A stretch of DNA of 64,000 nt from positions 19,966,599 to 20,030,598 of the forward strand of contig NC_088309.1 of NCBI RefSeq assembly GCF_910592395.1, in the 5' to 3' direction. This document shows positions 2,881 through 61,531 of this stretch, one piece after another. Positions within the stretch are counted from its first letter, which is position 1; every line of letters starts with the position of its first letter. Made by a program: the position numbers and the translations under genes. The notes below the pieces were generated by a model that saw only the letters and a list, made by a program, of their open reading frames with translations, searched no databases and was not told where the DNA came from. The stretch is from Lineus longissimus (lineage: Eukaryota; Nemertea; Pilidiophora; Heteronemertea; Lineidae).

Positions 2881-5800
2881 GCTGATTCGGTTTGGTCTGT
2901 TTGACTATAGCTTTCCTGAAAGAAGATCAGATCAGGAAATAATGTTGGTTTGATACACGTACTACTCACATAGTCCATTTTAGCAATGGTCATTTCGTAA
3001 ATTCCGAATCTATGCGAGTTATCTGACCGAACCGTTGTCAATCGTCCATACATTTTACACGTCAGGCCAAATTTAACTGGGTATGGCCTCCTCCGTAAAC
3101 GGTCCGCTTTTTTGGGGCGGTCGCGGTCGGGGCCTTGCGTAGTTATGCGGCTGAACCGCCGAGTACAACGTACTCGCCATGGCAATCTCCAGCGCTGAGA
3201 GGAAACAGCAGGTGATCACACTTCGATAATCTTTCAGCGCGAAATATTACAGTCTATAAAAATTGGGCACCGCGCTGATCTCGAGCGATCCCGAGAGATC
3301 CATGACCAGACCCATGACCCTGGTGCTAATGTCTCTACTGGCACAAGATCAGAAGGCGAAGCAAATGCGTTATGGTTATACAATTTCGTCAAGTTGTTCT
3401 TACCTTGTTGTTCCTGGAAAGACGAAGTGTGGACGAAGGACCACACCCAGTCGTCAGACGGCCCCGCAAGACGGACACTACGGCCAACGACAGAAGATGG
3501 TTTTTGACTTACAAATCTAGAAATCTCAGAATATCCATGAACTAGCTTGTCGCTCGAGCAGTGTGTCCGGCCGGTCTCCACAAAACAGTCATGGTGTTTA
3601 CTGCAAGTGCACGTGTCTTGTTGGCCGCTAGCACGTATTGATCCGTTTATTTAAGGTCGGGAAACACTCTACCTGTTGAAGGTGGACCCCATTATCCATA
3701 TGAAAACAAACGATTTAGTGCTGCCTGGGCATAAGGGCAGTAATGCAAGCGTCAACTCTTGCCGCCATGCCATTTTCAAAGCGCTTTTGCTTAGCTTTTC
3801 AATGCATGCAGGCACACAGCATGGGGTAAAACATGTTTTTTATCCGATTCAATCACACTTTTTCTTGCCTGTCCTTAATCGGCCCAATGAATGAAGCCGC
3901 GAGGCGACAGTAGACCTTTTTTGCCATTATAATCTGTTTCTACCATTCTAGAGAAACGCCTATTCCGGTGTAACATCTGTGGTTGTTTCCCATGTGTCAG
4001 TGTTTCCAAACAATAGGCAGCTAGAGAGACCACGACTTTTCAATAGGGGGGATACACAGAAAAACTTGTCAATCTATATTGAGCGTTCCCAAACAATGAG
4101 GGGAAACACTCAAAAACAGAAACACTCAAAAACATTACACCGGCATAGCATTGAAATGGAACAAGATTTCATCTCCCGCAGCAAACTTGCCCGGCCGTAT
4201 ATGGTAAAGCAGCGAATTATTTCTGGATATACGCGTTTCACGAAAAACCGACCTTTTAAGGTTTGACCGAGGCCACTGCTATTAGATTAAATGTACATGT
4301 ATATTAGAGAATACAAGCAGTGACCCTCACGTTTGCGTCTGATGTGGAGATTCTGTCTATCACAACCACGCACTAAGACAATGTCACCGCCAGACAATAC
4401 AAAAACAGTCCGTCCAATAGCCATGCATGGAGACACCACAACCACTAGACTACGACGTATAGGCAAGAATATGATCAGTGATATTATGGGGAGTTGTCTG
4501 AACACACTGTAGCAATGTCACAACCTCGCGATTGTCTGTCTTATAGGACTCAGTTTACTCGGTGTCATTGTGATGGGTGTGCCTGGAGCTACCAATGTTG
4601 CTTGCTACAGTATGTGAAAGTGTACTGCACGAAGACTATACAGATATCACTGCGCTTCCTTAATGTAGTCAGATTGTGACATTGTCGTCAAGTGCTCATG
4701 GCGTCAACACTGCGAATGATGTTGCCATGACAATGTCCGGTACTAGAGACATGTAGCACAGGGAGCCACCTAGGCTCTTATTCCGGGAGATAAGTTAGAT
4801 TTACGTGATCGGAACCATCGCATCGGGAGTTTGATATAAAATGAAATAAACTGAATTTTCAAATAAAAGGAAACTTATTTGCTAAACGTTGCGTGGGGCA
4901 GAGTATTGGGCAGAGGTTGAATAGATATAAATTTCACGTGCATTGAAAGAATGAGTCAAATGAAAGTGGTTCAAAAATCCCTAGTATATCAGGCAACTGC
5001 CTAACTCCTTGCACTGAATTCCCCGTTCCTACGACTCCGACCAGGATGTTGTTATAAACTCCCTCTGCTGTCTGCAGTAGATAGATTGGTTGTGTCTTAT
5101 GATTTTGGGTTGACCATCAGAACCAACATTTTGTGTAGAACTTCAAAGCCAAACCCAATTAGGTCAAGGGAAAATAAACAAAAGACAGGAATTCATAAAT
5201 AATAATTTAGTGAAAAATTTATAACAAAGATTGCAATATGCACAAATGAACACGATTTCAGAGAAATGCACATCAAGTACATGTAACAACATTGGGTGAT
5301 ATGAATAAAGACTAGCAAATGCTTTTATCTAAATCTCCATGTACATTTACACTAGGCCTTCCTGTACAAAACCGGAGTAAAAGCATTTGCTAGTCTTTAT
5401 TCATATCACCCATTGTGTCCAAACTTCTTCCAAAATAATCCTTTCTGACAAGTCCTACCAGTTATATCTTCATGTTGTCCCTTCCCGTTGATAACTAGTA
5501 TTTTCAGTTGCATACGGACTCTGCAGTCTCCGTCAACCATGAAGCCATGTAGTCCAACAACAACAACGTCTACGAGTCCTAATGACTCAGGTCAGCAAAA
5601 ACTGCTCACGTGCAGGCAAAGCACTGCTGGATACAGCCTACTGCCTATGCCACCAACACACAATGACAATACACTGAAGAAGGCCTCGAGCTACATGTAT
5701 AGCAATCCTGCCAACCCACAAAGTGGTTGTACAGAGACTTATTATCTTAATCATTTCACTTTATACATGATCACATGGTAGGGTGAGATTCTCTTCGAAA

Positions 5801-6130: not shown

Positions 6131-6705
6131 TGATATCACCACTTTCCCTTCCTGCTCCTTCACCCACTAAACCTCCCTGTTGCCCCGTTGGCCCTGCTCC
6201 CAAACAATGGTCAGGCCTTTCTCTAGAATGTCATCACCGCTGTCCCTTCCTTCTCCTCTGCCCACTAGACCTCCCGGTTGCCCCCTGTTGGCCCTGCTCC
6301 CCAACAATGTCCAGGCCTTTCTCTAGAATGTCATCACCGCTGTCCCTTCCTTCTCCTCTGCCCACTAAACCTCCCGGTTGCCCCGTTGGCCCTGCTCCCC
6401 AACAATGTCCAGGCCTTTCTCTAGAATGTCATCACCGCTGTCCCTTCCTTCTCCTCTGCCCACTAAACCTCCCGGTTGCCCCGTTGGCCCTGCTCCCAAA
6501 CAATGTCCAGGCCTTTCTCTAGAATGTCATCACCGCTGTCCCTTCCTACTCCTCTGCCCACTAGACCTCCCGGTTGCCCCCTGTTGGCCCTGCTCCCCAA
6601 CAATGTCCAGGCCTTTCTCTAGAATGTCATCACCGCTGTCCCTTCCTACTCCTCCGCCCACTAGACCTCCCGGTTGCCCCCTGTTGGCCCTGCTCCCCAA
6701 CAATG
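6131..6705. repeat. 98/100-bp minisatellite copying the BRAP C-terminal tail
   Basis: About six tandem units; the anchor TCATCACCGCTGTCCC (or a diverged form) starts near 6131, 6231, 6331, 6429, 6527 and 6627, so units are 98 or 100 bp. The size difference comes from a CCCCGTTGG versus CCCCCTGTTGG indel. On the minus strand each unit contains a copy of the last codons of BRAP (GEQGQQGATGRSSG then RSRKGQR stop). The BRAP stop codon used is in the unit nearest the gene (6630-6632); the other five units lie downstream of it. Confidence 0.9.
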
Positions 6706-9700
6706 ATTTGTCCGTCTTGAATCTCCTCTTGAGTTGCTGCTGATGTGCCGGCGATCTTTTGTTGAGCTTCGAGATAGAACATGACATCACGTAATTGCTC
6801 TTTCAGGTCCTTGATTTCCTGAAAAGGAAGATGAATCATTGATACACTATTTTCTTTGATTAACCTTTATTGCAAATTCTGGAAGTTCATCCACATCTGG
6901 GCCTCTAGACACAGAGTCTCAATTGGCCTTAAAAGTTTCCCCAAATCGTCTCTAACAACCTTTAAAGACTGAATTGTGATGATTGATATCAGTTGTACAT
7001 GTACATGTATATCTGTCAAACAGTTTGTCCTGCCATTCTTTCTGATTCTGGAGCAGATTCTTATTCATCCCAGTGACTCTCAGTCACTTGCTGCCCAATT
7101 TTCCTAACTCCTAGCTCTGTTACTGAAGAGAACCACCCTTCTCAAATCATGTCGTCGCCCCTAATGATGAAGTATCTAATGATAGTTTATGATACAATCT
7201 TTTCTTCTTTGTTTTTTATAAACGAACCTCATCCTTCCTTTTCTCAATTAAGGCTATTTTCTTCTGAGTGTCCGACAGTTTGTCCTGCCATTCTTTCTGA
7301 TTCTGGAGCAGATTCTTATTCATCTCCCTCTCCTCTTGCAGCTCATGTGTCAGCTTGTCAATCTTTTTACTCAACTTGAAATGATAGAAAAAGTTATAGA
7401 CCAAATATGACTTCAATACGACTCTATGTCATGTTACTACATGCAGGAGGACACCCTGTGACACAGAACCCACTGACTGTAAAGCACATCCAAGGCCAAG
7501 CAAGATATCTAGCCCTGGTGACTTGATCAGTTACCTCAACTACCTGATGAGTGATGGCTAATTACAATGAAAAATTACACGCATATTATACCTGGGTAGT
7601 CTTTTTCTCCTGACCCTGCTTCTCTCTCTGAACAATAGTTAGTCTCTTTTCTCGTTCGTTGCATTCATCCATGGCCTTTTTGAACTTTTCCTCATATTCC
7701 TGACCCTGAAATGAATCACACCAAATTCTTAACACTGGAATCGAAACCACGCTAATGAGACAGGCTACCCATCACTACTTCCTTGTAAGCTTGAAACTGA
7801 ATACTATTTCATATTTGCCTATTAGAGAACAACCGGTAGTCAAGCCCATTCACTAACTTTATATCCAAAATTCCGAAGTATTTTGTTGAAACCAAGGAGA
7901 CACATACTGCCCTACACGTGGCTTTTTCAGGCCAGTTGAAAGCGCCATCTGACACTGGGTGTGCCTGAAACCCAGGAACTGGTGACCAGAAGGTGGACGC
8001 TCTTTCACTGTGCAAGGGGACACAACAAAGGAAAAGCTTGTACAAGAACAAGACATGCTACCTCAGTTGCTGAGTGCTGATCACGTTCCTGATTCGAATG
8101 ATTTTGACCCATTTCACATTTTACTGGAACAAAGGTAACTTGAGCTCTCTTCAGCTGTGTTATATTGGAAATCTTACCCGAGATTCAGCTTCTTTTTCTA
8201 ATAGCGTCATTTTCTCTTCAAAATATAACCTCTGGGATTCTAATTGGCTCGTCAATAAATAGGTGTACTGAAATTGAAATTGGTTACTTGACAGGAGTAC
8301 TCAAACAGTGCAGCATACAAATGCAATGAAAACAATATCAAAAAGTTTAAAGTGTTAAAAAGTTCTGTTGGTACACCAAAGATGATTGACAAAGTCCTTA
8401 AGGAAAGGAATTGCCACGTATTTGAATATTGGATTAAAGAACAGGAAAGTTGCCTGACCTGCACTCAAATCTCATCTCTGCTGGAGAGCCATTATCAAAA
8501 TGTCACACTTCCAAGGAATTGTCATACCGTGGTATTGATAGAACACAGTGAAATCATTCTGTCAGCATATTCAGTCCCTCCAGACACCCACCTCTAATGT
8601 GATGGAATCCATTTTTTCATCCTGGTCGACTCCGCCGCCTTCGTTATATTCGACTAACTTCCCGTCACCTTTACTCTGTATCAAGCGATGCACATAATTA
8701 TCACCAGCATAGTCCCACACTCTACTGTTACTCAGCTGCATCACATAAGTATGCTGGGTCAATTCATAATGGCTGAAAAAAGGAGCACCGATTAGAAATC
8801 ACATAAACATCAGTACCATAAAACTTCTGAGTTCCCAACTCAGCTGCATCACATAAGTATGCTGGGTCAATTCATAATGGCTGAAAAAAGGTGCACTGAT
8901 TAGAAATCACATAAACATCAGTACCATAAAACTTCTGAATTCCCAACTCAGCTCCATCACATAAGTATGCTGGGTCAATTCATAATGGCTGAAAAAAGGT
9001 GCACTGATTAGAAATCACATAAACATCAGTACCATAAAACTTCTGAATTCCCAACTCAGCTCCATCACATAAGTATGCTTGGTCAATTCATAATGGCTGA
9101 AAAAAGGTGCACTGATTAGAAATCACATAAACTTCAGTACCATAAAACTTCTGAATTCCCAACTCAGCTCCATCACATAAGTATGCTTGGTCAATTCATA
9201 ATGGCTGAAAAAAGGTGCACTGATTAGAAATCACATAAACTTCAGTACCATAAAACTTCTGAATTCCCAAGATTGAGAGTAACTTGACAATTTACTGCCA
9301 TTTACCAAAAATAGGTCCCCAGTGTTAGTTTGATTGACGAAATAGAGGCATTTGTCGTATGTTGTAAGAGCAAAAAGTAGCAGGGAATCAACCTACCTTC
9401 TGGCATGGCCACCTTGATACCGCCCGCATCCAATGTGACCACATATCAAACAAATCCATAAACTCTGAAACATAACATAAGTTCAAAATGAACCCAATCC
9501 CTAACTGCTGATAATAATGTTCAAATAGAGGACCATTATGATTATTCATTGTACATAACGGCAATTTTTGATGGTTTTATTCATAGCAAATTGGATTCTG
9601 TCCTTAGGGACTGTAGCAGAAGTACAGAAGTAAACATCTTGTCAGGGAGCTTAGAGTAAAACTTTTGGCCGGGTCATTTTGAATTTTTGGCATGCTGATA

Positions 9701-12438: not shown

Positions 12439-13249
12439 GAACCAAGAAACTGAAAGTGAGGTATTTTCATTAAACTATTGCATTGGAATAAATCGATTTT
12501 CTAGAAGACTCGGCATTTTCTAGAAACTGGCAGGCAACCAATCCAGCTGGGAGAGGGAAACACAACCCATGCACTAACAAAGTCAACCGCTCTTGTTCAG
12601 CAGCACGACACCTAAGCAACGTGCACGCTCTAACTACTAAGAATAGTCAAATTTCATTATACCTGATTTTGTGGGCCAACCTGAAGTTGCAAGGCTGAAG
12701 TTTTCAGGAAGTGGGCAATCATCCGAGATTTCAAACCGAAAATGTACAACCGCAATGGACATCGGGGCTGCTATATTTAGGTTCAACTGCTAAAACTATC
12801 ATTCCAATTTTCTTAGACACAAAGAGAATCAGTTGAATTTCTGAAATAGTTGAAAAAAGAGCAAAAACCGTAGAAAAAACTATTTCTTGCAAATGATGTC
12901 CACCATGTTTATTTTGGTTTGCACTTTGGTCTATGCTAAAATTGGCAGTTTCTAAAAATAGATTTGAGGTGTCGTATAGCTTTCCTGGCCTAGTAACTTA
13001 ATAAATGATATTTGTAGACCTAAAATATAGCTATGTACCTTGTTATAAGCAATTCTGATTGTCAAAAACAATTTTTTACCCACAGAAAACGACTTTTACT
13101 GGGGAATTCCAAGTAATGACGTTACTCCAATTGCTGTAAATTCAATGATGAACTGCCAAGTTGCAAATGGGGAAACCCGACTTGCAGAAAATGACAAGCT
13201 GAGGGCTCATTTACCCATCTAAATTCCATTCACTGCCAACTCTGTCAAG
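12439..13249. promoter_or_regulatory. Divergent BRAP/QPRT intergenic region, probable shared promoter
   Basis: The BRAP start codon (minus, 12438) and the QPRT start codon (plus, 13250) are 811 bp apart and face away from each other. No other gene is visible between them. A bidirectional promoter or two closely spaced promoters must lie here; I do not see a clear TATA box at a fixed distance. Confidence 0.5.
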
Positions 13250-14627
13250 ATGGATGGGTGTAGATTTGCTCACCTGCTGCATCCAGTTACTACCCAAGAT
13301 CTAGTGAGGGAGTGGTTGAAAGAAGACACTCCAACTTTTGACTATGCCGGATTTGTTGTGGGGGAAAAAGTTGAAAAAGCTTGGCTTCTCTGCAAAAGTC
13401 CTGGGGTGCTTGCTGGCTCCCCATTTTTCGAAGCAGTGTTTTCTGAACTCGGCTGCTCTATACAATGGTTCCATTCCGAGGGAGAAACTCTGTCGCCAGT
13501 ATGCAAGGTCGCAGAAGTTACAGGGAAGGTGCGGAATTTACTCCTTGGTGAACGAATCGCTCTGAACTGTTTGACAAGAACAAGTGGTGTTGCTTCATTT
13601 GCACGGGAATTGAAAATGGAAGCAGAGAGGTGCAACTGGCTTGGCGAAGTGGCCGGAACAAGGAAAACAACACCAGGCTTCCGAATCCCTGAAAAATATG
13701 CACTTCTTGTTGGTGGAATTTCCATGCACCGTCAAGATTTGTCTTCCATGATTATGCTGAAAGATAATCACATTTGGTCTGCTGGAAGTATAACACAGGT
13801 GTGTTACGGCATGATTAATTCCACTTGAGATGCTTTATGTAATTCGTTAACTTTCATTTTTCAGATCACCCTTGACTTGAGAAGTGGACAATGCATCGAT
13901 AAGAATGCCTGCTGGAAACGAAAGGAGGTCAGGGCATTGGAATTCAAACCTTCACCGCTCTGCTCTTGGCATCTTTGACTTGCATAAGCCCAGAGCATTT
14001 TAAGCTACCAGCATTACTACTTTTGTGATGGTAAAATCAGATACGACCTTGAAAATGTCTCAAATTCTTCTTTTTTATTAGGCTGTGAAAGATGCAAAAC
14101 AAGTGGGTGGCTTTTCTACCAAGATTGAAGTTGAGTGCCGGAGTGTTGAGGCAGCAACTGAAGCAGCCAGAGCAGGTGCAGATGTGGTCATGCTTGATAA
14201 TTTTGACACAAAGGTAATCATCCTCTTATGTACCAATATCATCTTTCTCAATCAAGGGTTGACCATAGGCACCACCATTTTTGTTAGAACTTGGAATCCT
14301 AAAGCAATTGGAAGTCTTTCAAAACAAATTAAATGCCAATTTCAAAGATCAGAGTCTGTTCTAGACTTTCCAGAAAACTAGTAGTGAGTTGCCTCTTCAT
14401 CATTTCAGTCACTACACGAAGCAGCCCAGCAAGTCAAGGCACAGTTCCCCCACCTTATTGTTGAAGCCAGTGGTGGAGTGACCCTGGAGACAATCAAGGA
14501 ATACTTTGGTCCCCATGTGGATGTGATCTCACTCAGTCTGACAACCCAGGGATACAGCACGGTGGATTTTTCATTCAAAATCCAGAAAGAAGGGGAAAAT
14601 CCTGAGAACCCTTTGGTTATCATGTAA
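13250..14627 (+). CDS. QPRT: Quinolinate phosphoribosyltransferase (nicotinate-nucleotide pyrophosphorylase)
   Basis: Three exons, 13250-13798, 14082-14213 and 14409-14627, in phase and giving 299 aa, the usual family length. The enzyme converts quinolinate plus PRPP to nicotinate mononucleotide, CO2 and pyrophosphate in de novo NAD synthesis from tryptophan. Visible signatures: [12 protein letters not shown], the PRPP/quinolinate-binding [43 protein letters not shown], the barrel strands [11 protein letters not shown] and ADVVMLDNF, and the C-terminal [20 protein letters not shown] then DVISLSL. The start ATG at 13250 is the first in frame and places the N-terminal [18 protein letters not shown] where the family begins. 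It is head to head with BRAP. A possible polyadenylation signal AATAAA is at 15517-15522. Very secure identification. Confidence 0.96.
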
Positions 14628-26600: not shown

Positions 26601-29600
26601 TGCTAACATCAGAATATCCGTTTCGTTTCTCATTGTGTTATTTAAAAAAAAAACTGTACGTGTTTAGCTTCATCGAAGGTGAATGTCATACGTTTGTTAC
26701 AGGTATTAAATGCTAGCCTTGCAGTTGAGGAAGGTACACGAACTCTTCACTTACAGGCCTATATCACTGACACACAACCGTCTGAGCCATCATCCTAGCT
26801 CTACAGTATAGCTTTGGTTTGCCATATTCATGAGACCCCAAAGAAAACATATCATCCGTCAACCCATGGAGGCTTATCCAATTTTGTGCCGACGGTACAT
26901 CCACTCATCAGCCACTCGTACCTCACTTGGTTTCTTCTATTGACTTTCCCCAAAATTATCTGCTGATCTCCAAAAATTGTGTTATTATTTACTTCGTGTC
27001 TGATGCCTTTCTCCAGGAATTCATTGCACTTGTCTAGGAAGCCATTGACAGGATTAAGGTACATGTATGTACCAGCAAAAACGATAACGCTGGAAATAGC
27101 TTTTTAGTTGAAAAGGAGCGTATGGATGACATAGGCATATCATACATTCTTGATAGGTACTGCGAACTTTAGTGACTATTTGATGGTTAACAGTCTGAAC
27201 ATGTAGTATATGTGATACTATCCCATTAACCTCTTATGATTGTATCAGTTCTGTTAGAAGTCCCACCTATAAACCCTCTCTGTCATACTCAGTTACGACA
27301 GTAGCCAATGTTTGGCCACATTTGTGTTTTTTTCTTTTCTTCCTTTTATTGTTCATCTGCAATCACACACGTCTCTGTCACAACAATACCCCAGTGAAGT
27401 CAGCACCACCTAGCGGCCGCCGTAGTATTGCTGGTACCCATCTGCATTGATTGCTATAACTCTTCTATAACCTTGCGAATTCCTCAAGCCATAATACCAT
27501 AAAGGAGTCTCACTAAAAGTTGTGCCGTTCATTCGGGGAAAATCAACATCCGCATTAACGAGTTAAGTTTAAATTCGAATTGCGATCACCCTGTATTTTC
27601 TTCAGTAATATTTTTCTCCTCATTTAGATACTCCGTATTTGCGCTCGGTTCTACTGCGTATCCGAACTTCTGCGCCTTCGGACATTACGTGAATAACGTT
27701 CTGAATGAGCTTGGCGGTGAGAAGCTCCTGGATATCGCCGAGGGAGATGAGCTTTGCGGCCAAGATGATGCCTTCCTCAACTGGGTCCGAGGTACTTACA
27801 AGGTGAGCAAAGAAGAAAAGAGTGGGAAAAAAGTTAAAAACCATAGTGAAGTTACTTCCTTTTCAATTGCAATCTTGCTCTTCCAGCATCAATTTTTGAC
27901 ATCTCTCTTGTTAGCCAATCAGAAGTCCGAGATTATCCAATCTCCCAAGGATCCGGGCCTGATTTGATAATCGTTCCATTTTCCAGGCTGCCTGTGACGC
28001 CTTCTGTATCACTACCACACATGATTCATCAAAGATCCTGGCCAAGACTGATGACACGTGGAGGATTGGGAAATACCGCCTCCAACAGAAGACAGAGAAG
28101 ACAGAGAAGAAGGAAGATGACATATGTGATGGCTGGAGTAAGATACATGGCAGGGCAGTCTACCCATGTACACTCGTTGCAAGGCAACAGCTCCAGTCTA
28201 AGGATTCTAGGTGAGGCTGGCTCGCTGGAGAGTTTTCCTCATTCACTGTTGAGATATTGTACAATACAGCTTTTGACCTGCCCCTCGCTCTACCATTATG
28301 TGCGCTCCCTCCATGAGCGTGCAAGGTGCGTATCGCGCACAAGGAAACTGTTCTTGGGCAACACCAAATAAAATATCAAGCCGGGGTCTTGTCTTGCATG
28401 AGCGTACGCTACATGAAATGCTTGGAGATAGGCATGATCCCAGTCTTAGTAGCCAACATGGACTTTGAAGCCATCAGAATTGAGCCAATCACAGGAAAGT
28501 ATTTACATGCTATGGAAATATATTTCTTCGGGAAAGTGTTGAATGTTTTTCTGTTTTTCTCCCCAGCCGAAAGACAATTCTTGTGCGCCTGTCGACTGCT
28601 TGCAGCGAACAGGAGCTTTCCTATCTGCCTGGCGACCACGTCAAGATCTTCCCTACCAATGAGAAATGCTCTGTCGATGCTTTACTTGCCAAGGTTAACA
28701 ACGGGCCTCCTGCCGACCATATCATTGAGGTCGAAGTTGCCTCTGAAGGAGCGGGAGGAGCCATGCCGTTTGGTGAGTCTTTTAACGGGACAACTTGGGC
28801 GTGGGTTTTAGGTGGTAACTAAAGGAAGATACTCCCGATCACCACCATTCGCCGCCGCCACATGTGACGTCACTCTGATGTTTCCTTGCTGCTTAACAAG
28901 GGTGTCATTAACAACAAACTGCACGAAAAATATATGTAAGAGTTGTAATGCATCTTTCTTCTCTTTAACGTCGTTCTCCTCTATTCCTCCATCACCTCGA
29001 ATGTATAGGTGGCGCAAGAACCTTTACAAAAAGTGACCGACTTCCAGCGTGTACGTTCCGGACAGCTCTCAGTCGCTACCTTGACATTTCAACGCCTCCT
29101 ACCCCGGATCTTGTCAAGCTTTTTGCCACTCTGGCCACAGCAGACAACGACAAGGAAAGACTCGAAACACTAGCATCGGTAGGTCATTCAAAAACAGGCG
29201 CACACATGATCAAATATCTTACTCCATTCTTACTATTTAAAGCACCGGCCTTCTTTGACAGATTCTAGATTTGAATCAAGTGTAGCAATTTAGCTTAATT
29301 GTTTGAGAAAAGCTAAACTTTACGAGTAATTCACTGCATAATCAACCTTTTCGTGACTGTTCGTTGCCAATTTTCTTTTCTTCTGGGAAGTTCATTGTAA
29401 GTTTGATCTCACTTTTCCATCTCTAGAATCTCAAAGCCTACGAAGAATGGAAATATGAAAAGTGGCCCAACATGGTAGAGTTTCTGGAGGAATTTCCCTC
29501 AGTGAAGTTACCCCCGACACTTGTCCTGACGCAGTTCCCCCTCATGCAGCCAAGAGCTTATAGCATAAGCTCGTCTTTGGAAGCATACCCGAAAGAATGC

Positions 29601-42000: not shown

Positions 42001-44376
42001 TATTTTAGACACAGTAGGCCTCGATGTATGCTTCCTTGATCTCTCATGGTCTACAACACAACAGAGCAGGAATGGTATTCTTCTTACGAAATATTAGACC
42101 TCCATATTCACGAACCTTTTATCAATTTCTTGTAAACTTTTGCCCATGACGTCCTGTCCATGGCTGTCAAGACACCAACTGGCGGTCCTGGCGACGGAGA
42201 CATGTCGATTGCCTGGCCAATCTTCTCTTGTAACTGGGTCAGGTTTAGTTGTTTGCCACTCTCATCGTATAAGTCAATGCAAAAGAACTGGAAAAACAGG
42301 GAAATATGTTAGCGATTCTTACCCAGTAAGGGAGACTGATGACAAGGGAGACACAAGAATTTCAAATGGGAGTCAGAATGGAAATATTTTCAGAGAACTC
42401 TTTCGTTCATCCTTGGCTTTTGGTCAGAAATATTTAAAGGTTCAAAAGAACACGGCCAGACTCCACCCTAATTCTGACTAGTTCACTTTGAGCAGCCTCA
42501 TCACAGCCTTGTGGTTAACACTGCTGGCTACTACATGTATACACAATTGTTGAGATACTTAATAACTCACCTGGTTGTTGTGCATTGCAACGACATAACC
42601 TGCCCGCCCCTCGGGTTTTTCCGGGTCATGGACATAACTGCCATCCTCTTCTTCACCGGGGATGCGGCATGAATTCATCACAATGTAGGGCTGTTTCATA
42701 CAAAGAGGATCCTTGCCGTATTTTTGAACAGGAATGGTACCACTGGAAGAGAGGATGGAGCAACCAGATCTTAAATTTTTTGTCCACATTGTTTGGGGCT
42801 CTGGAGCGCGAACTACTGGTTGGATTTCTTTGAAGTTTGGTTTTATCAATCTTTATCTTAGGTTAAACCAAACAGGATATCCGTGGTTCAGCATTGCTCA
42901 TATTTGGTTTCTGGATATTTCTCATTCAGACTAGGCACACGAGTTCATGGAGACAAAACAGCACCTCATCGACTTCAATGAAAGGATATTAGGGCCATAC
43001 CTGTCCACCATTTTCTTGTAATCAAGAATCCCTAGTAGGAGTTTGGCTGCAAATCTGATCTGGCCATTCCTCCCGTTGAACTCCTGTTTTGAGTAGAACA
43101 GCCCAGGGTTGATATGGACAACCAAGCTGTCACGCCACCTCTGATAGCCATATCGTGACCACCATTCATCAACCTAAGGAATACAACATCAAAGTATCAG
43201 TCATCAGAAAATAAGGAAATTTTCATAGAACATCTTATACGTGTAAATCATCAAATTTTCACATGCAAATATTTTGATAATTGCTGTGAATTGCCAAATA
43301 TAACTTATAACAAAAATAACCTATATTGCAAATACACAAAAAAATCACGGTAAGCAAGTTCCATTTTCTTTTATGACACTTTTTAACTTTTGAAGACTGC
43401 TTACCCAATTTGCTTCTGATTTAGCCCTTTCGCAAAGAATCCTATGCAGTGCTTCTCCCTCACCATTTGTCTTGCCAAATTCTTTAACAATTTGAGATGT
43501 CTTGGCAAAGTCCTCATCAGAGATGATCGGTTTCAAGACACTGAGGTATTTCTCAAGAGATTGCTGGAGTGGTGCAACAGGGAGTGATGGAAGATCTTGT
43601 TTGGCCTTCAAGCTGTAACACCGGATGCTGGATTGTCTGTGGCAAATGGCACTATAATTGCCTACCACAGATAATAAACCTTTGGAAAACTTGACCTGAA
43701 AAGTTATAGATTTGATGATAGGTTTAAGAGTTGTTGAAAACTATTAATCTCTCACCCAAGAACCAATACCATGAGGAACAGGACAATTGGTCCAAAGAAC
43801 CCACATTAGATCAATCAATAAGTGCGGCTTCACTATAAGAATCCACTCACAAAAGATTGACCAATACGCAATAGTCAGCTTGCCTAAGAACTCCCTCTCA
43901 CTGGCACAAGATCAATCAATGAGTGGCCTGCCCGTCATCCTCTTGCAAACAGGGCCTACAACACGACTTCTCCTTACGCATGTTTCGAAGTATGTATCAA
44001 GTAAATGGCCCGATATTGTCAGGATGCCTGCCCATGAACCCCAAACTAACCTAATCAATTAAGTGGCTTGCCAAAAAACCTGTACCTAGCTTAATATCAA
44101 AATAAAGTGCCTTTCCCAAGAACTCACAGTCACACTTAGCTAAACAATTCTAATAATGAAGGCTCAGTCAGTATCCCACTGGGACTGGCACAAACCAAAA
44201 ACCATATTATTAATTATATAGGCCCTAAGCTAAAGATGATACATAGGCCTATTAGCCCAGGCCAGGCCAAGAGCCTATTTACTCTCCCGGGACTCCCATT
44301 ACATTCCCAACAACAAACAACCAACCAATGACTTTGCCTACATCTTCACCTTTATAATCCCACTACTGATAAACAT
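39048..44376 (-). CDS. CRAT: Carnitine O-acetyltransferase
   Basis: Twelve coding exons on the minus strand: 44350-44376, 43405-43695, 43001-43173, 42571-42742, 42116-42287, 41543-41718, 41211-41311, 40788-40910, 40447-40569, 39986-40184, 39579-39716, 39048-39269. Phases join to 638 aa (family ~626). It reversibly transfers acetyl groups between CoA and carnitine. Seen: QDLPSLPVAPLQQSLEKYL (family start), WWSRYGYQRWRDSL, RFAAKLLLGILDYK, YVVAMHNNQ, the SGNRWFDKTMQ block, catalytic H352 in GANLEHLLAEA, carnitine/CoA motifs STYETGSTKKFRYGRTETVR and RISTSQVPSKHGG, and FGPSEQDGYGMCYN. The first ~45 residues are basic and free of acidic residues, as in a mitochondrial presequence. The C-terminus ends HQG, so there is no PTS1-type peroxisomal signal. 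The 9-codon first exon (ATG at 44376) is inferred from a GTGAAG donor and matching phase, and is the least certain part. Confidence 0.94.
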
Positions 44377-51000: not shown

Positions 51001-52696
51001 CTTGATCAACACGGTAACTTCCTATTCTTCATCATCACGGCAACTTCCCATTCTTATATCTTACCGCCATGATCAATCACTTTCAATTTCGAATATTCCT
51101 CCCATAATTACCTCTCGATTTATATGTGCTAATTTCCATTTTCAGGCCGATCGTATCAGTCAGTCTGGTAGTCATCATAGCGTTGAACGTAACGGCCAGA
51201 TGCCTCTTTTTACAGCAGAGGGGAAAGGTATTCGCAATTGATAACAGGTATACGCTAATGCAGTGGAGGAGTTCAAACGCCAGTCTTTCCTCACGTTTGC
51301 ACTCAATTTTTATTCGGCTGTCTATCTCTATAAACGTCTACCACTGCGTAGAAGTGTTTTTGACAGGTCATCATAATCATCACAGGATATTCTGTTGACC
51401 CAACAGTAATTTTTGGACGCTGTATAACCAGTGTTTGCCGCTTTATTGAATTCCGGTACTCCCGGCTACTTCCCTCCCCATTCGGCGGATGGGTCGGCGC
51501 TGTCAAAGCAGAACACCGTATACCAACAAGACTTACAAAAAATGATGATAAACCATCGTTTTCCTTTCAGGCGGCTACTGTTCTGCGTGATGTTTTTCGC
51601 TTTCTTTTACAATGTGTTCGTGGGTTTGTTCTCCTGTTTACTGCGAATGGGCAAATCTGTAGTGTTTGGCCTGTTCTTCCTCAGCCGCCTCGACAGCAGC
51701 ACCCTCCCAAAGAAATTTGAAAAAATGGACCCAGGTAGGTCATATATATGCACGAGATGTGTTGGTTTTTCATACAAACTTGGGTTCCAGCCGTTGGCCG
51801 TGACTGGAGCCACTTTATGAGGTCTCCTATCTATTACTTTAACCATCTTTTACTACACCATTCTCAATGATCACGATGATATTGCAATCTTCATTAACTG
51901 TATCGCCGTTTGATAGGTTTCGAAGCTTACGTCGGTCTTATCCACGTCGAGACTGCCCACACCCATCCTGTCTTGGTGACCTTTGTCAACATGGTGAAGG
52001 AGGCCATACGGGAAAGGCGAGATCAAGAGAAAGAACAACAACTAAAAGAAACATCAGCATCAGCTAAAATAGTTGACTGTACGTATTCCTTTAATTCTAC
52101 GACCGATTATACTGGTACAATCTTTGTTTCCCTTACCTATAATTGCCTAATCAGAGGAATAGTAAAGACTCTTGTGATTAGGTTGCGGCGACCAATACCG
52201 GAAGAAAGCGCGATTTACAGAGCCTTTGTGATGACAGACAGACTGGGCCTGAGCGTAGGTTTCCCCAACAGGAAAGCTTAGCACCTTTGTGGAACCCGGC
52301 CTTTTTCCTTAATCAATTTAAAAATGCTAAACATATTGAGGAAATCACATATATCTCATCTGAGTAATTTTGGTTTCAGACGATGAGCTTGGTAGTATCG
52401 AAAGAATGGAACCAGACACAGACAGATCAGTGAAAAAGAGCAAACAAATCAGGTCGCGATGGTTCCTGTCCTACACCTTGATAAACAATCTTCCCCTTCG
52501 GGCGACAAGGAAGCATTACATTGACGCTGAGCGGGAAAAGCACAAGGAAAGGCAACAACGACGGTGTAGGAAGCAAGGCATTGAGTTGGAAGTTGAGGTG
52601 ATCGATCCAAATTATCCCAACAAGGGGAGCGAAGACCGCAGTGCCAGCATGGGAAACGTGTCAGAGAAGCATGGAACGCAGTATGAAACATTTTAA
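45063..52696 (+). CDS. STRA6: STRA6-family receptor (vitamin A / RBP receptor-like membrane protein)
   Basis: Seventeen coding exons: 45063-45145, 45638-45701, 46023-46108, 46467-46600, 46889-47058, 47429-47554, 47881-47951, 48228-48372, 48690-48879, 49317-49392, 49749-49815, 50248-50296, 50624-50741, 51146-51247, 51571-51734, 51917-52078, 52380-52696. Phases join: 707 aa (vertebrate STRA6 ~667). Seen: a short extracellular N-terminus with a Cys (ECHRL), first hydrophobic helix then VKRVRLWPNILFGRPG, IPMDFLDDRGLRLSYAAVYG, several further membrane segments, YSGYQVAYIFWG, ALNVTARCLFLQ, and the STRA6 signature DPGFEAYVGLIHVETAHTHP with LVTFVNMV. The cytosolic tail has SYTLINNLPLRATRKHY, as in STRA6. 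In vertebrates this receptor moves retinol from RBP4 into cells with bound calmodulin. The ligand carrier here is unknown. The donor after 47951 joins a CAAG acceptor, the weakest junction. Confidence 0.9.
45225..45570. repeat. ~73-bp degenerate tandem repeat in STRA6 intron 1
   Basis: GGCATCTCTC-like cores recur at about 45299, 45371, 45445 and 45519 (72-74 bp spacing), each preceded by a GAACCATTGGTACA-like block and followed by CATACATGT and TTCCTT-like sequence. Four copies, fully intronic. Confidence 0.7.
47555..47685 (+). mobile_element. Possible tRNA-derived SINE fragment in a STRA6 intron
   Basis: GGTTCGATT at 47592-47600 matches the core of a Pol III B box, with a possible A-box-like TGGTGAAAGTGCCAGG about 30 bases earlier. 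It is followed by GTGTCCTTGAGCAAGACGCC, which resembles conserved segments of many animal SINEs. No poly(A) tail or target-site duplication is clear, and the element starts right at the exon donor. Confidence 0.35.
50118..50166. repeat. CA/CG dinucleotide microsatellite
   Basis: Alternating purine-pyrimidine tract of CA, CG and CACG units inside a STRA6 intron; such tracts can adopt left-handed DNA. No coding meaning. Confidence 0.85.
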
Positions 52697-53723: not shown

Positions 53724-55327
53724 CTAGCTGCTCATTGAACTTTTCTGATAGAGCAAAATACCGACTAAAGTTATCGTGACACCTAATATACTGGTCATGG
53801 ACATGCTGTGATTAAACAGGATAACGGAAACAGCAATATTCAGAAGGATACCGCCATTGCCAAGGACTTTCAAGGTCAAGGGCGAAGTGTAGAAGGTCAC
53901 GACGAAGGTCAGGATGTTGTAGACGATCCCGTTTAGGCAGCTCGCCATGATGCTGAGCAGGAAATTGACGTCTGTGAAGTTGTTGTGTTCCTTCATCAGG
54001 GCATCGCCCTCCCAAATGATGGTTGCCAGACCCAGGATGCAGCTGCTTGGCAACGAGATGTGGTAGAGCAACGCCAGGGAGTTCACCTTCTCTTCTTTGA
54101 GGAGGCGCCCTAGGGGAAGGAACACAAAGATTGCTAGTTGATGATTTATTTGGGATATGACGGACTTTAGTCTTTTTGGTGAGAGTCTTTTGGCATTGAT
54201 ATTACAGCCGTCCTCTGGCATATAGCGCACACTGAGACTTCAAGAAATTTCGGCGTAGTATCCCAGATCAGATGGAAAAAGTGGAGTGCCATGAAGGGGT
54301 AAATATAGTCTTCGAAACATTTCAACGGACAATTTCAGAGGTATAAGATTACTCGTAGCCTAGTTAATAGGTTTGAAGCATGTCTATACTTATTAATCAC
54401 TGACAGACCTCCAAGAAACTGATATTTAAAGGTACCATTAGCATTCTTTCGTTGCCTGTGTAATGTTGCCCAATTACCTTCGAATAAAGACCGGAACGCC
54501 CGGAGTACCGTCGACCCAATCATGGCAGCAAACCCCGCCCAATGGAAGTTGACTTCACCAACGGCGCACAGAATCGTCCCGCCACACAGGGGTATCAGTG
54601 AGGTGTAGGTACTCTGGGTCAGCTGGATCCCTGTCATGCACTTCGCGAGGACCACTGTCACAGCAGGGCTGGTTGCCATGATCATTTTGGCGAAGGAGAC
54701 GTAGAGGTACTTGAGGCCAACGTTACCGAGGGCAATGCTTCCAGAGAACAGGGCACTGAGGATGTAAATTTGCCCCATCACTTTCCCGGGCAGTGGTGTG
54801 TTGTAAATGCGCAAAGGGGTCATAGTCAGTAGAAAGTGGTTGATGCAAAAAGATGTCAACATTTGTATTGCTGTCAAGGCGATTGGGAAGTTGAACTCGA
54901 ACGACGTCAGGATGAATTTGTTGAGGTTCGATATTGAAATACCCAAAATGAACCAGCCGGCCACTGCGATGGGAACTTTGAAAAAGTCCGTGAAATAATC
55001 AGTTTCCTGGCTAGTGTCGTCTGCCTGACGTGCTCCGCGACATGATGCGCTGACGACTTCGGATTCGCCTTTGCATGAGTCATTCCTGCCACCAAAGAGA
55101 AAACGTGAAGTACCATCGTCGGTCCGTTGTTTCTCGGCAGTTATTACCTCATTAGTCCGTTCTATCTCAGCAATCACGTCACTTTCTTCTTGTACAACGA
55201 AGTCAAAAGCATCACGGGCACTTTTTAAAGGGTCACTCAATGTCCGGCGGATTTTTGCATTAGTTTTATCCAGAGACCAACTTCTTCGCTTTCGTTTGTC
55301 CTGGAGCTTCCGCAGCCAAGTGGACAT
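53724..55327 (-). CDS. SLC35E-like nucleotide-sugar/triose-phosphate transporter
   Basis: Two coding exons on the minus strand, 54478-55327 and 53724-54109, joining in phase (GAA G | GG CGC) to 411 aa. A hydrophilic basic N-terminal region of about 120 residues precedes the membrane domain. That domain starts FFKVPIAVAGWFILGISIS and has about ten hydrophobic segments typical of the TPT/SLC35 drug-metabolite-transporter fold. Recognisable family blocks are NKFILTSFEFNFPIALTAIQ, LGNVGLKYLYVSFAKMIMAT, SPAVTVVLAKCMTG, and in exon 2 FYTSPLTLKVLGNGGILLNI with ITLVGILLYQKS. By resemblance it is nearest SLC35E4/E3, orphan Golgi-type transporters; the substrate is unknown. The long N-terminus with a SLDKTNAKIRRTLSDPL stretch is not part of the transporter fold. 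The intron (54110-54477) uses a GTAATT donor. Confidence 0.88.
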
Positions 55328-55911
55328 CTCACTTGAAATTCGTAAAGTTTGAGGATAAAAGCGGAAAAGGCTATCCTCAATTCGACTTGCTTAGGCTCAC
55401 TAACAGTCCTAAAAAACTCAGAAGAGTTTATGGTCAAAATCTTTCACAACATTAAGATCTCAACAAAATGTCAAAATCCTGTTTCGAAGTTTCCCGGACG
55501 GAATTACGGAGTCGGAGAAAGAGACGTCCGTTTACACCAAGTAGTGTTCCGGATTTCCAGTTTTGATAACAAGTCCCTTAATAATGTTCACTAAATGCGA
55601 GTCCGCCATGAAATGAAAGTTATCATTCAGGCGGGCACTAATTAGGACTTGATTTGGGTTGATTTGATAACTTAAGGTTGACGTGGTGAAATCTGCAGTT
55701 CAAGTTCTTCGTGACTCATGGGTCGAATTGCCGAAGCTACATGTGCGCGGAAACCTCGGGCAAAAAAGTGGAATGCGTCATGCTGACGGCACGTGGACAT
55801 TGTTTTGACTGAGATGTGACTGACACGAGGGGCCGGGGGGGGGGGTTGCCTCATAGATTTACCAATAAAGTAAATATTTCCGATCTGATAAGGTGAGACA
55901 GATATATACCA

Positions 55912-55945
55912 TAGTAGAACCTCACTATTAAGGACACCCTCGGTA
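55912..55945. mobile_element. Fragment of the TIR interspersed element, copy 3
   Basis: AGTAGAACCTCACTATTAAG and AGGACACCCTCGG match the 5' end of the elements at 14668 and 38494; the rest is missing where the 160-bp repeat array region begins. Confidence 0.65.
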
Positions 55946-56030
55946 CCCTTTCGCCAATCAATCTCTTAGTCATGTACACGTGGAAGCGACAGAATAACGA
56001 CCAACGCATCTTTTCTTCATCGCCTGTACG

Positions 56031-56570
56031 ACAACCAGGGACACTCAGGTGTCTCAATATCCCTATGAGGTTGACCTACTTGTAAGGCCTGTAGGACAAC
56101 CAGGGACACTCCTTGTCACCAGGTGTCTCAATATCCCCATGAGGTTGTCCTCCCAGTTGTCTTACTGGCAAGGCCAGCAGAACAACCAGGGACACTCTTT
56201 ATCATCAGGTGTCTCAATATCCCTATGAGGTTGTCCTACTTGCAAGACCTGTAGGACAACCAGGGACACTCCTTGTCTCCAGGTGTCTCAATATCCCCAT
56301 GAGGTTGTCCTCCCAGTTGTCTTACTGGCAAGGCCAGCAGCACAACCAGGGACACTCCTCATCACCAGGTGTCTCAATATCCCTATGAGCTTGTCCTACT
56401 TGCAAGACCTGTAGGACAACCAGGGACACTCCTTGTCACCAGGAGTCTCAATATCCCTATGATGTTGTCCTCCCAGTTGTCTTACTGGCAAGGCCAGCAG
56501 CACAACCAGGGACACTCCTCATCATCAGGTGTCTCAATATCCCTATAGGTTGTCCTACTAGCAACCAGTA
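56031..56570. repeat. 160-bp higher-order tandem repeat (74 + 86 bp)
   Basis: ACAACCAGGG starts at 56031, 56096, 56182, 56256, 56342, 56416 and 56502. After the first step of 65 the spacing alternates 86, 74, 86, 74, 86. The 86-bp type contains CCCAGTTGTCTTACTGGCAA, which the 74-bp type lacks. Both contain AGGTGTCTCAATATCCC and GAGGTTGTCCT. This is a dimeric satellite grown by amplification of a two-part unit. Confidence 0.92.
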
Positions 56571-57464
56571 GGAAGACTGGGAGTTCTTTCATGAACCAGA
56601 ACCAGAACTGATGGATGACATGTTGCCGATTTGGTTGCCCTGCATCAGCTACAAATGGAATTAAGTTGAAGAAGATTTTCTAGGGGAGGAAAAGGTAGCA
56701 AAATGGTCACTGATTGAGTCGTTACCTCTACATGTATGTGAGAACTCTCTCCGTTTGGTTTCCGTTCATTCCCACTCAATGGAGGACACACTTACAGAAG
56801 ACAGAATCACATCCGCAGTCATTGCTTTTTCTACCCGGTCATTGTAGTTTAGGCCAGTATGAAAGGAAGTTCTGTCTTGTAAATTGTTTTGCTAAGAGTG
56901 CTCCAAAATCGTAACCTCTGCTGTGGAGAATGTTGTGCTGCTGGTAATCCTAGGATTCCCAGTTACACCACTGGTAGGTCATTCAACCCAAAGAAAAATA
57001 TCTGTTGTCAAGGTAACATATCATTTATTGCATCCGTAGTAGCAAATGTCACAAACAGTGAATGGGCGATACATAAGGACAAGTCCTGTTAATCGGAAAC
57101 CCGCACAAGCCCGCGTGTCTTCTGTCACATTCACAAGGGACAATGGTTTCAGGTTTACTCAAGGTGGAAGTGAGGACACACCTCACACGGTAGGCAAAAT
57201 CAAAAGACCCCACCCCAATTACTGTAAGGGAAGGGGTCAAAGAGTAACCATGTGTGAAAACGCTCCTAACAAAATCTCCTTTTGTCTGTTTCTTCTGTGA
57301 TACACATGCCATTACTTCAACAACGAGCAAACCCAATACTATTTATTGTTCACTGTGTTTATGAGTTTCACCAAAGCACCTCACAACACAATGAAATACA
57401 ATCACCCCTCTCAGCAAGTGTCTCTTTTAAATGCACCTTGTTCTTATGTAGTGATACACCAGTG

Positions 57465-60400
57465 CTAGTCTGGGTAGTCCCTTTCTTGTGCATCTTCATC
57501 ACTGTCGCTACTCACAGCAGCCTCCTGAGGTGGCCTGCGATATCCTTGTCCCTTTGTGGCTTCGGGATCAAATGGTTCAAGTTTGATATGCGAAGTACAG
57601 GCGAGTCTGGCACAAGCTTGTTTGGCTTGAAGTTCCTGAAGAAGATAAGGCTAAGGATGAGGCAAACTCAGGGCTATGAGTACATGTCATGGGCATAGCC
57701 AGGGGAGTTGAGGATGCAAATTACCCACACTCTAAGGGTTTTTTTAGAGAAAAACTACTTATTCTTTGTTTTGCTGAGCATTTCTCCCCTGAGTATGACT
57801 TGGTGCTGTTAGGTGAAATATGCCAACAACCTGACATAAGGATATTTTGTAACAACTTGCCTCCAATTTAGCCTTCTGTGCCTTTTGCAAATGCAACGAT
57901 TCTTCCAAAGTCACAAGTTTGGCAGAACCAGTCTTCACCAAAGTTCCTGCAGTAAGCACACCTTCGAACTTTTGACTTGGCCTGCAAAGAAGATAAGAGA
58001 ACTGTAAATACATGTAATGGAAAAAATATCATGGATAACAAATAATTCAATAACAAATATGAAAAAGGAGCATATTCACGATAACGACCCATATAAAACT
58101 TAGAAATTATATCATTGGTCACTTGCTGAGCTTTGAAAGCATTTTGTCTGAGCTTTAAATTTTGCTGTTCTATTTGGAGGCCAGATAAGGTGAAAATGAT
58201 TTGAACTTACTGTAACGCTTACCTATTCTTCCTAACAAAATGGTTGTAAATTCTTAGCAGCACATCGGCACTGTCACTAACTCTGGATCCCCAGCCAGGA
58301 CAGCTTGTAGGAGGTCTCGCTAATACACAGATGAACACATCCTGTCCTAGATTGTATAACGTTTCAAGATCACTGTAATTCAATCCTGAAGCAGCTATCT
58401 TTTTTGCCAGGTCAGCCGTGATCACATCATGAGAAGAAACTGTAGAGTCAAACATCTTCCCGCGAAGGGAAGTCAGTCTTTGCCTTTTGGCTGTCAAGAA
58501 GTCCAAGTCAGCTTTGCCATAGTCACAGGATACGCACTCAATTCCATTCACTACACTGTCTGAGGTCAGCTGGAGTCTAGAATCATTGAGCACTTTATGG
58601 ACTGCCTGGGCAACAATTAGAGAATCTGAAGAGTCAAGTTTATAGTTGTACAAGGAATAAAACACAGATTCAAGGTCACAAGTGTCAACACGGATCTTTC
58701 CACACGTTTGCAAACATCTTAGTAGTGGGACGAAGTTAGCAAAACACACATCTGGCACTGGAATACTGAATGTCCTCAGATTATATAGCAATGTCCGTCG
58801 CTGAGCCATACTGGTTGTACCAACCAAAACTATCATAGCACCACTATTATTTGTCTTCAGTTTTGTGACATACTCAACAAAATGCTTCAGGACCACCTGA
58901 CGACTATGGGCCTCCAAAGTCTGTCCATTTTTGCGCAGAATTCTCTTTCCTTCTTCGTATTCAACTGTTAATCCGGTCACCTTTGCTGCAGCTCTTGACA
59001 AGTAAGCTGGTAAACTGTATTCAGAGAAACTGTCCCCTTCGGCGGACACTGCAGAAATCTGACAGATCTCAGCATCGCTCCCGTTACTGTTGGTCTTGAT
59101 ATCAAAAGTAACGAATTTATATTCTCTGGCAGGATCGGATGAAACTAATTCTTGCACTGGTGGTGAGGTAAAAGGCGCGACCCGACTCTCATATTCTTTG
59201 AACAATTCATCCGTTACTCTCCCAAGAGCATCAGAAATGGCTGAAATAAAAGAAGATTTCAATCAGAGGCCCTTGGTCTTGTTCGCAAAGACAAGAACTG
59301 AAGCTATACAAGTCTGCCATATCAACCGTCACTTTCGACAGAGACAATTTGGATAGTCAAATCATTAACTTTGTCATCATTGAGTTTATAGCTCTGTTCG
59401 GCATTACCACCCTTCACCTATTACAATAACTTACTCTCACTATCGCTAGTGACCATCACATCTGTTTGGTTTGATGTTTGGGCTTCATCATCAGCAACAT
59501 CACATTGCTTTTCTATTAGTTTTGTAACATCGCTTCTTAATGTGCTGAAATGATTATAAAATGGAATAATCAGCAGTAAGATCCACACATCTTGCAAGTA
59601 TTTTACGACAATGAATAATCCTATCAATCCTTCCAATCAACTATAAATGTCAATTCAAATGAATGTATGTGCATTTTCAAAAGACATTCATAGAAATGAG
59701 AGTATGGGGCTCTTCAGAAAAGCAGGGTTTTCAATTAGGATTCTTAATTTGGGCTTTTTAGTGACCATCGTGTATTTCATCCCCGGTGGTTTCAAGAACG
59801 GAAAAATTGGAATTGTTTTCTCATTCTTAATCCTAAGAAACAGATTTTTCTTCAACTTTCAACTGAACTGACACAAAAAGTGGCTCTTTTATAAGACATT
59901 ATAGTGTCCAATATTTTAATCTGGGCATCCCATGTTTGGTTACACCCCTTCAAGGTGGTTTTCCAATACCTGAATGGTTTGAATGGTCCCTTCTTTTCTT
60001 GGATAGTAGGACCCTTTTTTGCTTTCAGTTGTTCCATTTTCTCTATTAATCGAACATCCTTCCTCTCTGGACCCTTGTCACCAGTGTCTACATCCATCTC
60101 ACTTTGCCTCAGAGACATCCCTTCGAACAGAGTAACAGCATCATCTATTTCATCTTTTTCTGCTAGAATTCTTTTCAACTCAATCATGAAATCTTGGATC
60201 TTCTTCCCCTTGTCCTTTAAACTGTTGATAAACTTCCTAGAAAGAAAAGGCTTCATTCACTTAGAAAAGCTGAACGCATTTTAGATTTTGAGAGTAATCT
60301 ATTTATAGGCCAACCTTGATTGACACGACTACTGGTATCCACAGTAGGGCCCTTGACAGAGTCTCTGCTGTTTTGGCCTTTTCAATTCACACATGTTTTC

Positions 60401-60813
60401 TACACGGCAGATGAGAGGCTACTACTTAGCGTGTAAATGAAAGCGCTTTTACTTTTTCAGACTTGGCATCGAGTTAATACTTTTGTGTCATGGCTTCAGA
60501 ATACTCCATAAGCTTATCGCTGAACCATGGAATTTGCAGAGGAACTAGAAGAGGGCGATCCATGAAATGAGTGAGAGCCAACACTCTATCAAGTCGACTC
60601 TTGCAACTGAACTGTCACACGTAATGATACCCCTCATTTGACTGCCACGAGCAGTGGAAGTTTCTGTGAAAAGTTATTTCCTCAGTTGTACACCTTCCTG
60701 ACTTACTTATTCTGAAGGAGTCTCTCTTGCCTTCCCAAGAGGTCAACCAATTCGATGCGGGACTTTTCGGTCAGGTCCCCAAGGTGGCCTTGGCTCTCTT
60801 TCAAGAACGCCAT
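57465..60813 (-). CDS. POLR2M: POLR2M/Gdown1 with an inserted PML-like exonuclease-fold domain
   Basis: Six coding exons on the minus strand: 60707-60813 (its open frame runs to the acceptor at 60840), 59970-60236, 59435-59544, 58223-59240, 57861-57981, 57465-57635; phases join to 597 aa. Residues 19-60 carry the Gdown1 N-terminal motif RIELVDLLGRQERLLQNK then KFINSLKDKGKKI. EKMEQLKAKKGPTIQEKKGP (~100-120) matches a middle motif. Residues ~525-545 give the C-terminal motif LEESLHLQKAQKAKLEELQ, and the end is acidic. Gdown1 binds RNA polymerase II and blocks TFIIF. Between these, ~200-500 is an exonuclease-like fold (YKFVTFDIKTNSNG, EICQISAVSAEGDSF, SRAAAKVTGL). Its first motif is D208-x-K210 rather than D-x-E, and the HNG and HxxxxD-type motifs are not evident, so it is probably non-catalytic, as in PML. 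The last intron appears to use a GC donor. Upstream UTR exons were not located. Confidence 0.82.
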
Positions 60814-61531
60814 AGTTATGGAATACAGATACGTCCTAATCTGAAATAGGAAAGTAATCATGATAATTTATTAGGGGGGGGGGGGATCCAAGCATGCCAA
60901 GGGGATTGAGCTTAGACTTCTTCTAACATGCTATAATTGACTGGCTAATAAAGAGTCATAGAGTGATTCTGGCAGTGACTATCACTCAGTTAAGTCACTA
61001 GCCTATCTCAGTATCAGTAGTATATCACCAACTTTCGCTTGTTTCTTTATAGTAATACTAGGCCCCTAAATCATGATCATCTCAACTAACACAGTAACTA
61101 TACAGCTATAACGATATGTACCGGGTATTAAAAGATAGCAAACTAATTTCAGCGTGTTTCAATACCGTGTTACTGTTATCTATTCATTTTGCCGAATGAC
61201 TGCATTCGATTGTGGCATGTCTCTTGTGACACCACTGTAGTAAGAACATTTTACGGACTCGGCTCGTAAATTCCCATTTATAGTGTTTTATCAAGAGAAA
61301 TATTTCCAGCCGCCACAGTTAACATTAATTTTTAAATATTTGCTTTTAAACTCTTATTTATATTAAATTATAAAAAAGAAAAAAATAATTTTAAAAACGA
61401 ATCCATCGTCTGCATGATCGTGTGACTTTCTCTCCTGTCAATTAAATTGGGGCAGTAGGCCGAACCAGTAGGCCTGGGCTTGCACTTGCAGTAAAGCCTA
61501 CAGAGTGTGCAAAACGTTCCTCATCTTCGTC
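60814..61531. promoter_or_regulatory. Divergent POLR2M/SWEET-like intergenic region
   Basis: The inferred start codons are 718 bp apart and divergent. An acceptor at 60841-60843 shows that POLR2M has at least one upstream non-coding exon within or beyond this interval. A short G run is at about 60874-60884 and an AT-rich block at 61325-61395. Transcription starts cannot be fixed. Confidence 0.45.

Follow-up and report, generated by a model that had tools for sequence, protein, structure and literature searches.

The gene described here is located in a stretch of DNA of 64,000 nt from Lineus longissimus (NC_088309.1), called the window below, and all positions are given in the numbering of this window. 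The gene spans positions 60813-57465 of the minus strand. Just downstream of it, at 56045-56564, is a tandem array of 3.3 copies of a 160-bp unit (95% matches), each unit made up of alternating 74- and 86-bp halves, and the next gene downstream on the same strand is triose-phosphate-transporter-like (53724-55390, minus strand; TPT matches at 2.4e-7 and 7e-24). On the plus strand, two exon-like frames at 51898-52696 show weak similarity to the C-terminus of the model for the retinol binding protein receptor (1.2e-4 and 1.7e-5, both below the cutoff). Ordinary animal genes are represented by frames matching Gly_transf_sug (1474-2904, minus strand), quinolinate phosphoribosyltransferase (13223-13828, plus strand), the flavodoxin domain (27503-27967, plus strand) and carnitine acyltransferase (43345-43740, minus strand). 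Two more tandem arrays are found at 6135-6705 (98-bp unit, 5.8 copies, 95% matches), with a long open repetitive frame, and at 8730-9270 (108-bp unit, 5.0 copies, 98% matches). Rfam gives no matches in the window.

When six minus-strand exons are joined, they encode 597 amino acids followed by a stop in a single frame. The exons, and the stretches within them that are referred to below, are as follows:

60707-60813, minus strand: exon 1, with the start codon and the opening portion of the Gdown1 N-terminal block (amino acids 1-36; from the frame and the GRINL1A match)
59970-60236, minus strand: exon 2, remainder of the Gdown1 N-terminal block (amino acids 36-125; from the frame and the GRINL1A match)
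60206-60220, minus strand: codons for LKDKG (amino acids 42-46), at the site of the conserved Gdown1 motif LPDKG
59435-59544, minus strand: exon 3, acidic linker (amino acids 125-162, pI 4.05), first half of a phase 2-2 cassette
58223-59240, minus strand: exon 4 (1018 bp), predicted pseudo-exonuclease domain, EXO-like and putatively SAM/PML_C-like (amino acids 162-501), second half of the cassette
58780-59121, minus strand: stretch matched by Exu_RNase_H_like (exon 4 residues 40-153), containing the motif I D-I-K (half scanned alone)
58237-58428, minus strand: stretch matched by PML_C (residues 46-109 of the C-terminal 113-residue piece; piece scanned alone)
57861-57981, minus strand: exon 5, beginning of the Gdown1 C-terminal block, with a GC donor (from the frame and the GRINL1A match)
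57465-57635, minus strand: exon 6, remainder of the Gdown1 C-terminal block, acidic tail and stop (from the frame and the GRINL1A match)

All introns are GT-AG apart from the last one, a consensus GC-AG intron, and an AATAAA is present at 57347, downstream of exon 6. The junctions proposed in the preliminary description (59970/59544, 59435/59240 and 58223/57981) are exact in the joined frame, and the large internal coding exon that it pointed out is indeed there, with 1018 bp free of stops. The sense frame of exon 4 contains no stops, against 22, 35, 10, 16 and 17 in the other five frames, and none of 20000 base shuffles was stop-free. Measured from stop to stop, the frame is 347 amino acids long; for comparison, the longest runs without a stop in 60 shuffled windows of 64 kb average 154 amino acids and reach 203 at most. 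As a gene model, a Gdown1 gene with an internal exonuclease-like domain is confirmed.

The assignment of the outer exons to Gdown1 (POLR2M) is borne out by two matches. The 597-residue product matches Pfam GCOM2 (PF15328) with an E-value of 7e-13 and a score of 49.7 bits (cutoff 27). Of the sequences with solved structures, a single one matches it strongly, the GRINL1A chain 28jc_M (368 residues; E-value 3.3e-19), in two separate stretches. In the first of these, fusion residues 13-89 align with GRINL1A residues 15-96 (domain E-value 3.5e-10, 38 of 77 aligned residues identical); in the second, fusion residues 498-578 align with residues 277-358 (domain E-value 2.6e-6, 29 of 81 identical). The conserved N-terminal block of Gdown1 is present according to both GCOM2 and the first stretch, and the C-terminal block according to the second. 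Like the GRINL1A chain, the fusion has both blocks in unchanged order; unlike it, the fusion contains 597 rather than 368 residues, with the EXO-SAM-like domain in place of chain residues 97-276. The earlier statement that known Gdown1 proteins are without such a domain holds in the two comparisons made, with the Pfam family and with the solved chain of GRINL1A.

The peptide LPDKG is reported to be the most conserved of Gdown1, identical in the species compared except Xenopus, where it is LPDRG; Gdown1 and TTF2 are described as having the motif in common, with co-variation in Xenopus, and deletion of LPDKG from human Gdown1 as abolishing TTF2 inhibition (PMC4007455). According to the same report, human Gdown1 blocks TTF2 with its N-terminal part and TFIIF with its C-terminal part, and requires both for tight Pol II binding. 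In the fusion, LPDKG is replaced by LKDKG, in which four of the five residues are retained but not the strict peptide; this differs from what the preliminary description implied, although variation at one position also occurs among known Gdown1 proteins. The cytoplasmic anchoring signal of the human protein has three arginines, of which the fusion retains one; zebrafish and fly are reported to retain one or two (PMC9728996). Human Gdown1 is described as mainly cytoplasmic, its nuclear accumulation lowering Pol II and global transcription (PMC9728996), and POLR2M as metazoan-specific (PMC7704258).

When exon 4 is scanned alone against Pfam, it matches Exu_RNase_H_like (E-value 7.7e-4), PML_C (0.014) and the Rv2179c-like exoribonuclease family (0.089), all below the curated cutoffs. 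The PADLOC DEDDh model, taken solely as a general DEDDh profile, matches at 1.2e-4. When exon 4 is scanned as two pieces, Exu_RNase_H_like matches the first 225 residues at 3.5e-4 and PML_C the last 113 at 0.0018 (profile positions 12-72 of 75), both again below the curated cutoffs; these two separate weak matches, EXO and then PML_C, follow each other in the order seen in PML-1. In the scan of the whole 597-residue product, PML_C (0.027) is level with the unrelated GlgE_dom_N_S (0.026), so the PML_C match in that scan means little alone. A reversed copy of exon 4 matches no Pfam family at E<=1, exon 4 matches no NCBIfam family at E<=1, both of its halves are without PHROGs matches at E<=0.1, and among the solved chains nothing matches its last 113 residues at E<=10. 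Pattern searches in two collections, which comprise viral and prokaryotic contigs, gave 34 matches in the viral contigs and 83 in the genome contigs, with no relatives among either; 30 bases taken from exon 1 and its donor have no exact match in the genome contigs. The structure models of the domain are poor (pLDDT 34.6 and 42.1). With the first of these poor models, the top Foldseek match is Exu, with a TM-score of 0.20-0.21; with the second, Exu is absent among the best 50 matches listed.

Among the solved chains, phmmer finds a single match to exon 4 at E<=10, 9l85 (E-value 0.0059), which is labelled exodeoxyribonuclease III and is near in sequence to 9mrc, described as zebrafish Plex9.1 (PMC12934764); as a single BLASTP comparison, exon 4 and 9l85 match at 2e-7. 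In pairwise tests, exon 4 scores 151 against 9l85 (z 9.4), 138 against 9mrc (z 8.0), 121 against 9l8b, also PLEX9-type, and 132 against Exu (shuffles 54 +/- 9, z 8.8), and in each of the four cases none of 1000 shuffles reaches the score. The Exu stretch in this test is the one printed by the profile search with PLEX9, PML and exon 4, which biases the comparison mildly. Part of the similarity to Exu lies ahead of the EXO domain; with those residues removed, the score still exceeds 1000 of 1000 shuffles (z 6.6). A profile of PLEX9 and PML to which exon 4 is added finds Exu at 5.1e-11; when exon 4 is left out, Exu is not listed at E<=1. The nearest measured relatives of exon 4 by sequence are the PLEX9 (PML-like exon 9) exonucleases and Drosophila Exuperantia (Exu). 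An EXO-like domain of the DEDD type is identified by the DEDDh model, BLASTP, the profiles and the shuffle tests, with the Pfam match below cutoff, and these alignments show the EXO part to be homologous to Exu and PLEX9. The SAM/PML_C-like part is weakly shown.

The score against human PML is 69 and is reached by 215 of 1000 shuffles, so that "PML-like" is valid at the family level only. The link to PML comes from the similarity of the last 113 residues to PML_C, below the curated cutoff, together with that of PML itself to the PLEX9 chains, with z of 10 to 18. Of the PML-like exonuclease-fold domain put forward in the preliminary description, the exonuclease-like character and the membership of the group of PML exon 9 are upheld, but the direct resemblance to human PML is no better than that of shuffled sequences.

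Exuperantia (PDB entries 5l7z and 5l80) has the homologous EXO-like domain, including the residues ahead of it, and a SAM-like part is expected at the same place in exon 4; unlike the fusion, Exu is a protein of its own, without Gdown1 ends, and reads D-I-D at motif I. The PLEX9 proteins (9l85 and zebrafish Plex9.1, 9mrc) also have the homologous EXO domain, but their solved chains comprise the EXO part only. The PML-1 PXL (exon 9) has the same order of EXO and PML_C/SAM-like parts, encoded in a single large exon; it differs in being carried by an RBCC protein and in lacking significant direct pairwise similarity to exon 4.

At motif I, exon 4 contains D-I-K where the PLEX9 chains contain D-L-E, and the D-x-E of active DEDDh exonucleases (TREX or PLEX9) is not found there. 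Human PML reads D-L-K at this site, with the glutamate changed to lysine. At motifs II and III, no acid is aligned in exon 4; these stretches align poorly and ambiguously, so the loss of catalysis is argued from motif I. The replacement of the catalytic D-x-E by D-I-K argues for a pseudo-nuclease. PLEX9, which keeps the catalytic D-L-E, is described as active, and the PML-1 PXL as keeping only D614 of the four DEDD acids, with no detectable nuclease activity (PMC12934764).

A fairly unlikely origin of the domain is capture from a KolobokD-type transposon, in which case it would be a passenger particular to this lineage, taking no part in the control of Pol II. KolobokD elements of molluscs, arthropods and cnidarians are described as carrying a DEDDh exonuclease that resembles Exu and TREX (PMC9587614); by this description, the one comparison made, the KolobokD exonuclease has its similarity to Exu in common with exon 4. 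However, no transposon ends are recognised around exons 3 and 4, with no flanking inverted repeats in 55900-61500 (seed 12, length 20); the frame is open across 338 codons, with motif I changed; and the similarity to Exu reaches upstream of the EXO domain.

Exons 3 and 4 together measure 1128 bp and are in phase 2 on both sides. If both are omitted, the frame is kept and a plain Gdown1 of 221 amino acids results, which matches GRINL1A at 6e-20; if either is omitted singly, the frame is broken. The GCOM2 score is 53.2 bits without exon 3 and 50.6 bits with it, a drop that a length effect may explain in part; the matched stretch does extend into exon 3, but the score is not increased, and exon 3 was rejected as recognisable Gdown1 for this reason. 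Exons 3 and 4 are, by this sequence evidence, an insert in Gdown1. They might instead make up a gene of their own nested in this one, or serve as an alternative last exon, with the Gdown1 mRNA always joining exon 2 to exon 5. The phase compatibility of exons 2 and 5, the GRINL1A match of the 221-residue product, the GCOM2 score and a stop directly after exon 4 in the intron would all agree with such an arrangement. Against it, the acceptor and donor of exon 4 rank high on a simple consensus score (equalled or bettered by 2.2% of 316 AG sites and 3.4% of 263 GT sites in the region, respectively) and are in phase with both exon 3 and exon 5. In addition, the 241-bp intron 4 contains neither AATAAA nor ATTAAA, and exon 4 lacks an in-frame methionine ahead of residue 135 of 338, which already lies within the EXO part, so that it would be unable to make the complete domain by itself. 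We regard a nested gene or alternative last exon as very unlikely.

An active 3'-5' exonuclease, brought to Pol II by Gdown1 to trim RNA or DNA ends, would fit the clear homology to PLEX9-type exonucleases and the DEDDh model match, but was rejected on the D-I-K at motif I, where PLEX9 has D-L-E; the missing acids at the poorly aligned motifs II and III also speak against it, and it is highly improbable. The proposed link between Gdown1 and PML nuclear bodies through a true PML-type domain, to which the similarity of the last 113 residues to PML_C (E-value 0.0018), the glutamate-to-lysine change at motif I in PML and the lone D614 of PML-1 might be taken to point, is dropped as extremely improbable: the six Pfam families found at E<=10 in the 597-residue product include no RING, B-boxes or coiled coil (RBCC), and direct similarity to PML equals that of shuffles. 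The RBCC motif is what is reported to build PML bodies (PMC12934764).

We favour, with a probability of about 0.45, an animal POLR2M whose two Pol II-binding ends are separated by a two-exon cassette encoding an EXO-SAM-like RNA-binding pseudo-exonuclease of the Exu/PLEX9/PML-1 group. By analogy with Exu and PML-1, the exon 4 domain would no longer cut and would bind single-stranded G/U-rich RNA. Exu is described as a pseudo-nuclease that binds RNA (PMC5597691, PMC12934764); the PML-1 PXL is reported to bind (UG)10 RNA at about 0.48 uM and ssDNA less tightly, with no binding to dsDNA detected, and Exu to have a preference for this poly(UG) RNA as well (PMC12934764). On this analogy, RNA binding by the exon 4 domain is probable. 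The modest charge of the domain, which is not strongly basic (pI 6.59 for exon 4 and 8.57 for its EXO part), neither favours nor excludes it.

In the POLR2M with an EXO-SAM-like cassette, the RNA-binding module would be held between the TTF2-blocking N-terminal and the TFIIF-blocking C-terminal segments, roles that are taken from human Gdown1. Bound RNA, nascent or cytoplasmic, would then tune the grip on Pol II or the cytoplasmic retention of the protein; any one such regulatory step is doubtful. An ability to target to the cytoplasm has been reported for the EXO-like domain of PML-I (PMC11602975). Splicing around exons 3 and 4 would yield plain Gdown1 without the RNA module.

A wider proposal, which is quite unlikely, would make Gdown1 with an EXO-SAM pseudo-nuclease an old animal architecture, exon 4 a cellular relative, perhaps the source, of the vertebrate PML exon 9 domain and of Exu, RNA the gate of the Pol II inhibitor in this lineage, and splicing of exons 3 and 4 the switch of that gate. 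POLR2M and PML are both on human chromosome 15.

The fusion is a new combination of known parts, the Gdown1 ends and an EXO-SAM-like module. Among the open-access papers searched, none was found that joins Gdown1 or GRINL1A with exuperantia, pseudonuclease, PLEX9 or KolobokD, and none of the titles listed describes such a protein; the same fusion may already stand in the annotation of other genomes with no publication on it. The EXO-SAM arrangement is reported by structure only for Exu and PML-1 in PMC12934764, and, if our assignment is true, a further carrier would provide a handle on the origin of the PML-1 domain. The SAM-like domain of Exu is described as gained in arthropods (PMC5597691); if exon 4 and PML-1 have a common EXO-SAM origin with Exu, the module would predate that acquisition. 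For human Gdown1, PMC8887472 states that no specificity factor directing its interaction with Pol II has been identified. If true, an RNA-binding-type domain between the two Pol II contacts would suggest that RNA chooses when or where Gdown1 acts.
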